Source: Staphylothermus sp. (GTDB lineage: Archaea; Thermoproteota; Thermoprotei_A; Sulfolobales; Desulfurococcaceae). Taken from it: a stretch of 49,092 nucleotides of DNA. A program made the position numbers and the translations under genes. Shown piece after piece: positions 21,527 to 23,333 of the stretch; positions within the stretch are counted from its first letter, which is position 1, and the number at the start of each line of letters is the position of its first letter. A model generated the notes under the pieces. It saw only the letters and a list, made by a program, of their open reading frames with translations, ran no database searches and was not told the DNA's origin. Location: the NCBI GenBank assembly GCA_021157925.1, contig JAGGVR010000107.1, positions 1 to 49,092 on the forward strand, given 5' to 3'.

Positions 21527-21627
21527 TCTTTAACACCGAAACAATAAACCGTAACTACGAGTTAATTTAAACGTCAAAATCATTTTATTATACAATATAT
21601 GTAATTAATAATAGGGAGGTTATCTAG

Positions 21628-22038
21628 TTGAACTGGTTTAACCAGTTAAAAAAGAAAAGAACGGTAGCTTTAAAGAACTTTGACGAGGAAACTTATAGAC
21701 TGGTAAAAACCTTTGCAAGTTTAGAGGGACGGACTGTTTCGTCCGTTTTTGAAGAAGCTGTGAAGGAATGGCTGATTAGGAGAAGGAATTATGAGGAAGT
21801 ACTTCTTTGGAATAAGTTGGAGAAGGCTTATGAAGAAAACATGAATGCACTTATAAAGAATAAGTTAATTAAAGGAAAAGAGAAAGGATACGTTCTCGTA
21901 TGTAATGGAGAAATTATTGGAATATATAATAGATATGAAGAGTTAATAGAAGAAGCTAAAAAGAAGTGCAGAGCACCAGGACTAGTTGTTAGAATACCGT
22001 ATGAAGAAGAATCAATAGACTTGGGTCTACCATGGTGA
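21628..22038 (+). CDS. ribbon-helix-helix (CopG/Arc-like) protein with short C-terminal domain (possibly DUF5678-like)
   Basis: N-terminal RTVALKNFDEETYRLVKTFASLEGRTVSSVFEEAVKEWL resembles RHH; C-terminal GYVLVCNGEIIGIYNRYEELIEEA; 6-nt gap to the next gene. Confidence 0.6.
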   Translation: MNWFNQLKKKRTVALKNFDEETYRLVKTFASLEGRTVSSVFEEAVKEWLIRRRNYEEVLLWNKLEKAYEENMNALIKNKLIKGKEKGYVLVCNGEIIGIYNRYEELIEEAKKKCRAPGLVVRIPYEEESIDLGLPW

Positions 22039-22044
22039 CTTCTA

Positions 22045-22428
22045 ATGACTAAGACTTTTTTCAGGAATAAAGAACGAAATTACGAACCAATAGTGAGAGC
22101 AACCATAACTAATCCATTGAACAAAAAATCAGTAGAAATAGAAATGACTATTGACACAGGTTTTCAAGGAGGAATACTTGTTCCTCTAAAAACATATACC
22201 GATCTCGAACTCTATCTCCTAGAAGAACCAAAAATAACAGGAATAATAGCAACTGGGTCAAGAATAGAGCTTAGAAGAGCAAAAGCAATACTAAGAATCA
22301 ATGACTTCACAACATTATGCACTATATATACAGCATTGGGAGTAATGAAATCATTACTCGGCAGAGAAGTATTGAAGACACTTGGAGTCTACTACAAACC
22401 TCCCGAAAAAATACTTATAGGAATTTAG
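22045..22428 (+). CDS. clan AA (retropepsin-like) aspartic protease, DTGF type
   Basis: Catalytic IEMTIDTGFQGGILVP; C-terminal LLGREVLKTLGVYY psi-loop-like motif; 127 aa. Confidence 0.75.
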   Translation: MTKTFFRNKERNYEPIVRATITNPLNKKSVEIEMTIDTGFQGGILVPLKTYTDLELYLLEEPKITGIIATGSRIELRRAKAILRINDFTTLCTIYTALGVMKSLLGREVLKTLGVYYKPPEKILIGI

Positions 22429-22633
22429 CTAGCAAATGATTGTTTAATTTATATATTTGAAACATTTTCAGCTAGTTCGGTTAAAATGTTATGAAAAATA
22501 TGAAGATAATCATTATGTGTAAAGAACAACATATGCAAATATATAAATTTAACCAACAGGGAAGAGACTGATTGATAAACAATCACGTACTTTGGTTAAC
22601 TTTTATTATATTGGTTTAACAAATTATATTTTG

Positions 22634-22894
22634 GTGAACTCTGTGAGTTTGAGAACAATTTTAAAAGTTAGGAAGAAAGGTATATTGATACTTCCAAAGA
22701 AACTGCGTGAAGCATGCAATATTAAGGAAGACAGCGAAGTCATTGCCGAGGTTAGAGGAAATATGCTTGTCATAAGACCCCTTAAACCCCCATTAATTGT
22801 CGATGTAGATGCTGAAACTGTAGAAAAGATTTTCAGAGAAGAAAAAATCCTTGAGGATGTAAAATATGAAGAGATTATTAATAGGAAACAATAG
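22634..22894 (+). CDS. AbrB/SpoVT-type antitoxin (VapB-like)
   Basis: LKVRKKGILILPKKLREACNIKEDSEVIAEVRGNMLVIRPL; overlaps the PIN gene. Start taken at in-frame GTG 22634; the supplied track starts at TTG 22592. Confidence 0.8.
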   Translation: MNSVSLRTILKVRKKGILILPKKLREACNIKEDSEVIAEVRGNMLVIRPLKPPLIVDVDAETVEKIFREEKILEDVKYEEIINRKQ

Positions 22895-23333
22895 ATTTGT
22901 GCTTGATACAAGTGTCCTAGTTGAATATATTATTAAGAAATCACCATATAGAGGCATAGTTGAAAAATTATTCCAAGGATCCACGAGTGGAAAATATGAA
23001 TTATTCATTAACTACCTAACATTAAGCGAAACCCTATACGTTGTATCAAAAATATATAAAGCCGCTGGTGTCTCTGAACCAAACGAGGAGGCCTTGAACT
23101 ATATAATGTGGTTAAAAAAGAAAACAAAAATTATAGGAATTGACGAAAACATTGCTTTAAAAGCTGGAGAATTAAAGAAAAAACTACGTTTATTACTACC
23201 TGATTGCTATGTAATTGCCACAGCTATGACATTAAACGCTATACCATTATTTAGGAAACTAGAAAAAGAAATGCTGTCTATAGAAAACATGATTAGGGAA
23301 CTGGGAGTAACCTTCTTGAACGAACTATTCTAA
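22866..23333 (+). CDS. PIN-domain ribonuclease toxin (VapC-like)
   Basis: FVLDTSVLVEYI, LTLSETLYVVSKIY, LLLPDCYVIATA acidic PIN motifs; partner AbrB gene upstream. Confidence 0.85.
   Translation: MKRLLIGNNRFVLDTSVLVEYIIKKSPYRGIVEKLFQGSTSGKYELFINYLTLSETLYVVSKIYKAAGVSEPNEEALNYIMWLKKKTKIIGIDENIALKAGELKKKLRLLLPDCYVIATAMTLNAIPLFRKLEKEMLSIENMIRELGVTFLNELF

Follow-up and report, generated by a model that had tools for sequence, protein, structure and literature searches.

What is the role of a gene for a small DNA-binding protein that lies directly ahead of a gene for a retropepsin-like protease in an archaeal genome? We addressed this question for a locus in the window, meaning the whole stretch of 49,092 nucleotides that was analyzed, which comes from contig 76 of a draft archaeal genome (G000) whose named relatives are Desulfurococcales archaea. 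The preliminary description had placed here a 136-aa RHH protein and, after a spacer of 6 nt, a DTGF retropepsin; our reading of the open reading frames bore out its coordinates, both proteins and the spacer (Table 1). The TATA-like element upstream of the pair is almost unchanged in a genome of the same genus.

Table 1. Positions of the features of the RHH-retropepsin locus within the window.
Feature	Position	Strand	Remarks
AT-rich TATA-like element	21583..21600	+	5' of the candidate operator; possible promoter element, from sequence reading alone
GGGAGG ribosome site of the RHH gene	21614-21619		
Candidate RHH operator	21615..21650	+	9-bp tandem repeats GGAGGTTAT CTAGTTGAA CTGGTTTAA CCAGTTAAA, spanning the start codon
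RHH-DUF5678 protein gene	21628..22038	+	136 aa, TTG start; would repress its own operon and bind the protease
DUF5678-like domain	21886..21999	+	aa 87-124; strand-strand-helix-strand
Conserved C-terminal tail IDLGLPW	22015..22035	+	G, P and W invariant in 14 rows
GGTGA, likely ribosome-binding site of the protease gene	22034..22038	+	role suggested by position
Clan AA (DTGF) retropepsin-like protease gene	22045..22428	+	127 aa, MTIDTGFQGGILVP; proposed effector
Catalytic motif DTGF (Asp37)	22153..22164	+	D-T-G-F invariant in 10-row close alignment
Second retropepsin motif LLG (hydrophobic-hydrophobic-Gly)	22354..22362	+	LLG/LIG conserved, then R
VapB-like gene	22592-22894		3' of the protease gene
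PIN gene	22866-23333		follows the VapB-like gene

The preliminary description had named the lack of a conserved linkage in other genomes as one finding that would speak against a functional pair. Alignments of both proteins were therefore searched against 229 genomes of the class, with two protease positions coming from a separate search. Strong RHH matches (E < 1e-7) numbered 36, in 32 genomes, and a retropepsin gene lay directly 3' on the same strand at 35 of them. Outside the class, in a search of about 400 phylum-wide genomes, 29 of 32 RHH loci were paired with a retropepsin as well. The linkage is thus kept; the pairing far exceeds chance and is not a local accident. The paired loci span Sulfolobales-like genomes (family f11, a name that we infer) and Candidatus Methanodesulfokora, and occur also in a MAG titled Thaumarchaeota and in a further archaeon (L104). 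The RHH gene comes first; the two genes overlap or are separated by a short spacer, 6-7 nt long in most close members. Any RHH match at all was found in 47 of the 229 genomes of the class, a patchy distribution, and four genomes (G215, G210, G525 and G492) hold several RHH copies each. In other words, this is an adjacent, co-directional pair with the DNA-binding partner first, patchy and multi-copy, as type II toxin-antitoxin (TA) systems are. Most other DTGF/DTGA paralogues read in relatives have no RHH neighbor, so the constant element is a particular retropepsin subfamily together with its own RHH protein.

Neither viral contigs, including those of IMG/VR (searched with both alignments), nor phage and plasmid sequences (searched with tblastn) yielded relatives, and there is therefore no direct sign of mobility. 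Trees of the RHH protein and the protease were too poorly resolved to show transfer, and in an empty-site comparison of G001 and its relatives the flanking gene was not found. Compared with L092, dS is 0.88 for the RHH gene and 0.51 for the protease gene, whereas the transporter and VapBC genes that flank them show lower values, 0.05-0.21; it looks as though the module had undergone exchange or were evolving separately from its flanks.

The protease of the window scores 51.3 bits (1.2e-13) against TIGR03698 (clan_AA_DTGF), slightly under the cut-off of 57.35, and its same-genus orthologue scores 67.5 bits, over that cut-off. Its structure was predicted with AlphaFold as a read-through fusion of both proteins, a model that cannot show homodimers and in which the linker is of low confidence; over the protease part, pLDDT is mostly 75-96. 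The predicted fold matches the retroviral proteases of Rous sarcoma virus, EIAV and HIV, with E-values down to 3.6e-6. According to this model, and with the D-T/S-G and hydrophobic-hydrophobic-Gly motifs both present, the protein has a single-lobe retropepsin fold (clan AA). Against the same-genus orthologues, dN/dS is 0.29 for the protease gene and 0.08 for the RHH gene. A genome scan with the single protease sequence returned no relatives. Natural active-site variants occur in otherwise well-kept proteases: VTG in L046 (G169), DIG in L049 (G137) and NTG in L080 (G210). NTG replaces DTG in two Sulfolobales copies, with the RHH gene intact in at least one. Retropepsins of the DTGF family are common in archaea; our literature search found no function assigned to them.

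For the RHH protein, individual matches are weak but consistent. The window protein matches the Pfam families PSK_trans_fac (1.2e-4) and RH3_dom (3.6e-4), both under their cut-offs, and matches to these two and to RHH_1 recur across several members. Its closest sequence match in the PDB is the RHH protein E73 (4aai), and the best Foldseek matches of the RHH-DUF5678 model are Arc, SvtR, ORF56 and FitA, individually weak and none below E 0.5. From these matches, we assign an RHH fold to the N-terminus of the 136-aa protein. The preliminary description was also correct in seeing a small C-terminal domain behind it, and this domain can now be named as a divergent DUF5678. A profile-profile comparison with stand-alone DUF5678 proteins gives E 2.9e-5 at a probability of 74%, and some distant RHH members match DUF5678 (PF18929) more strongly than the window protein does. 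The window protein alone matches at E 0.015, with 15.6 bits against a gathering cut-off of 23.2, and 3 of 14 close members match at E<0.05. Given the sub-cut-off score and the distant profile-profile homology, we term the domain DUF5678-like and do not count it as a formal member. For the DUF5678 part of the RHH-DUF5678 model, Foldseek returned no significant match.

Genes encoding DUF5678 on its own also lie beside retropepsins. A retropepsin-like ORF adjoins a stand-alone DUF5678 gene at 25 of 30 loci. Of these neighbors, 20 lie 3' on the same strand; the other 5, two of which come from a single genus, are convergent. The neighboring ORFs were called by a motif pattern that gave 1 match in 463 kb of reversed sequence and that, applied to the window, recovered the known protease alone. 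Because of this adjacency, DUF5678 is apparently a retropepsin partner domain. Judged by gene neighborhoods, it seems to partner archaeal retropepsins in general, and the RHH protein appears to combine a DUF5678-like domain with an added DNA-binding domain. Our literature search found no paper on the function of DUF5678. At the convergent loci (L106, L107, L115, L116 and L134), the two genes are 3-8 nt apart, which would be odd for a co-regulated pair. On contig 53 of the genome that contains the window (L001/L126), a stand-alone DUF5678 gene (1426-1650 in L126) is followed by a DSGA retropepsin gene (1696-2118 in L126), near PIN and HEPN-like genes, a second type of module that lacks RHH. By eye, DTGA-type retropepsins without RHH (L007, L014, L021, L025 and L028) often adjoin HEPN-like, nucleotidyltransferase-like or PIN-like genes.

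At its C-terminus the RHH protein has a conserved tail. It reads G-(L/F)-P-W at the very end of all 14 close members, and across subfamilies the motif reads (V/I)E(L/F)G-x, with endings such as VELGWSLVEL, VEFGMGVL, GEWLGGS and similar in distant subfamilies. The motif falls within the last 16 residues in 32 of 39 non-redundant paired RHH proteins, with 4.1 expected from shuffled tails, and in 0 of 254 other blocks; since it was defined post hoc from these sequences, these counts are descriptive. E, L, G, L/F and P are encoded by many different synonymous codons while the residues themselves do not change, so the tail is selected at the amino-acid level. We therefore rejected, for E-L-G-L/F-P, the explanation that the tail is conserved merely as a ribosome site for the protease gene. 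Such a constraint is possible in part for the final W and stop codon, TGG TGA, which make up the GGTGA and close the RHH gene in 17 of 18 members; the W is also kept in a member that reads TGG TAG. The RHH protein of L105/L138 lacks the tail and no protease was detected alongside it; in L147 the tail is intact, yet no protease was detected there either. A resemblance in close members between the tail (IELGL) and the C-terminal strand of the protease (LELGI), noticed through a MAFFT misalignment of the two, was discarded, as it is absent by eye in distant subfamilies.

Upstream, the locus carries a row of 9-bp repeats. In close and distant families alike, repeats of the consensus unit CTAGTTTAA run across the RHH start codon; those of the window do so too and presumably also cover the transcription start. 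In an autocorrelation of 17 members aligned at the start codon, signals appeared at lag 9 (z 8.7), lag 18 (z 8.6) and lag 27 (z 4.0), with none at the remaining multiples of three; these z-scores overstate significance, as related sequences were treated as independent, which leaves the contrast with the controls unaffected. The lag-9 signal is also found in the non-coding bases -36 to -1 alone (16 members, z 7.7) and at 12 loci of distant RHH families (z 7.8). It is absent from the stretch -60 to -37 and from fourteen stand-alone DUF5678 genes (z -0.7). RHH dimers are two-fold symmetric, so that self-complementary repeats are expected, and tandem CTAGTTTAA is almost self-complementary. A 27-nt pattern, allowing up to three mismatches, was found in 5 of 14 genomes, always at the RHH start, with no further occurrence in the 14; a reversed control pattern gave no match. 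The pattern is stringent and weaker sites could be missed. As its stringent form is confined to the locus in the 14 genomes, we rejected a wider regulon at this stringency and regard the repeats as a candidate autoregulatory operator of the RHH protein.

Some copies of the pair are decaying. In G013, a nonsense codon closely follows DTGF, and in G150 the protease gene is frameshifted; the RHH gene is intact in both. In G005 (L048), a deletion fuses the RHH N-terminus to the protease C-terminus, and the operator repeats upstream persist. In G169, the RHH gene is broken and the catalytic D of the protease is changed to V. This asymmetry, drawn from few cases in draft genomes with possible assembly errors, would fit a harmful protease and a protective RHH protein.

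We favor the reading that the two genes form a single functional unit, operating in the manner of a type II TA operon, and give it about an even chance. In such a unit, the RHH-DUF5678 protein would dimerize, bind the row of repeats over its own gene start and repress the operon. Its C-terminal half, that is, the DUF5678-like domain and the (V/I)E(L/F)G-x tail, would bind the homodimeric retropepsin and keep it inactive or in check. If the RHH protein dropped, through degradation or for want of fresh synthesis, the protease would be freed and the operon derepressed, and the freed protease would then cleave cellular or invader proteins. The regulatory or TA-like module proposed by the preliminary description gains from the unique self-complementary candidate operator at the promoter, the RHH-first order, the short spacing or overlap, the patchy distribution, the conserved tail and the TA genes nearby. 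Its other proposal, a proteolysis-controlled repressor, is less likely in a wider form, since the operator was found at its own locus alone in the genomes searched; an operator that is local at the stringency used implies local control. We also count for the TA reading the pairing at 35/36 and 29/32 loci, the selection on the tail peptide, the retropepsins next to DUF5678 genes without RHH and the PIN genes near the pair. To these we add the decay cases, in which the RHH gene can be intact beside a broken protease gene but a broken RHH gene goes with a deleted or D-to-V protease, and the one RHH protein that lacks the tail and has no detected protease neighbor. The five convergent DUF5678-retropepsin pairs, which form no antitoxin-first operon, count against it, as do the NTG copies, L147, with its tail and no detected protease, and the lack of relatives in the viral, phage and plasmid searches. 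More tentatively, and with the balance of probability somewhat against it, DUF5678, whether RHH-fused or free, may be a general retropepsin-inhibiting domain of archaea, its C-terminal strand or tail lying in the protease cleft or dimer interface, and the pairs a class of TA systems with a protease as effector.

It is rather unlikely that DUF5678 instead serves a housekeeping retropepsin as an activating or substrate-selecting cofactor, with RHH just keeping operon expression low. DUF5678 does partner several retropepsin subfamilies without RHH, the convergent pairs being the best argument for such a cofactor; the bacterial retropepsins so far characterized tend to require other proteins (PMC11957791), and the dN/dS of 0.29 for the protease gene agrees with this role. 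However, presence in 47 of 229 genomes of the class is unlike that of a housekeeping gene, RHH autoregulation and a TA-island setting would be superfluous, and an intact RHH gene beside a broken protease gene implies that the protease is dispensable.

We consider it improbable that the retropepsin, on a signal, cleaves its RHH partner and so derepresses the operon, comparable to ImmA/ImmR. With the operator confined to its own locus in 14 genomes, cleavage would control nothing further; moreover, the conserved element is the extreme C-terminus and no inter-domain linker, and the NTG copies keep the pairing. In favor of such a switch, a repressor with an adjacent cognate protease is a design that is established, and Makarova et al. 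2009 (PMC2701414) discuss COG2856 zincin-Xre pairs in these terms.

The position directly before VapBC, noted in the preliminary description, holds here and in one genome of the same genus; elsewhere the neighbor varies. Within 1 kb of the pair, a PIN gene was found in at least 4 of 13 genera, where 0.32 would be expected (P about 2e-4), as counted from among the matches listed and with a 1-kb threshold picked after the data were seen. This enrichment, and the VapBC genes that follow the pair in the window (22592-23333) and in the same-genus genome, would suit a multi-gene unit with processing of the VapB antitoxin by the protease, but we hold this to be very improbable: most members have no adjacent VapBC, and the others have differing types, sides and orientations. 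VapBC as a fixed third component was rejected, and from these neighborhoods we regard it as an island-level neighbor and no component of the module. That the genes are chance neighbors or an annotation artefact is practically dismissed, for although the window proteins alone give weak domain scores, adjacency at 35/36 and 29/32 loci, purifying selection and a conserved operator have already refuted it.

Read as a TA-like operon, the pair resembles type II systems with RHH antitoxins (FitAB, RHH-type VapBC and AtaRT) in its two small genes with RHH first, its promoter repeats and its patchy presence, and in that the C-terminal part of the DNA-binding protein is the presumed toxin-binding region; in VapB, a C-terminal tail lies over the toxin active site (PMC10127717). 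In those systems the second gene encodes a nuclease, acetyltransferase or kinase, whereas here it encodes a retropepsin, and the partner domain is DUF5678. COG2856/ImmA zincins likewise pair a protease gene with a DNA-binding repressor and are linked to TA genes (PMC2701414), but combine a zinc protease with an HTH protein, in contrast to an aspartic protease and RHH with an operator at their own locus alone; neither the motif nor the fold of a HEXXH zincin or an Xre HTH partner was found in our pair. Within TIGR03698, in which the profile, at a score slightly under the cut-off, and the motif would place the window protease, the present subfamily is nearly always accompanied by RHH-DUF5678, whereas the family entry gives no such partner or function. 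PEPT_D of PADLOC, an aspartyl protease of type III CRISPR operons in Sulfolobales, is a distant archaeal homologue (4.5e-5) with a defense-associated annotation, but no CRISPR genes were noticed among the neighbors read here. RimB of Pseudomonas is, similarly, a single-domain prokaryotic retropepsin that works with a partner (PMC11957791), but it belongs to the rimABK operon, acts on a ribosomal protein and has no RHH or DUF5678.

In a term search of Makarova et al. 2009 (PMC2701414), the COG2856 zincin was the sole protease family discussed as a TA component, and no aspartic protease came up. We found no published retropepsin toxin or retropepsin TA system among the open-licence papers listed, where absence is no proof. 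We know of no earlier retropepsin toxin; the protease here, if it is the effector, would be the first. Beyond the preliminary description, the analysis adds the candidate 9-bp operator, the identity and partnership of DUF5678 and the conserved tail. For the retropepsins of the DTGF family there is now a constant partner, along with an operator and a tail peptide that are both defined, which makes their function directly testable. If the protease is the effector, DUF5678 would be, to our knowledge, a first family of natural protein regulators for prokaryotic retropepsins.
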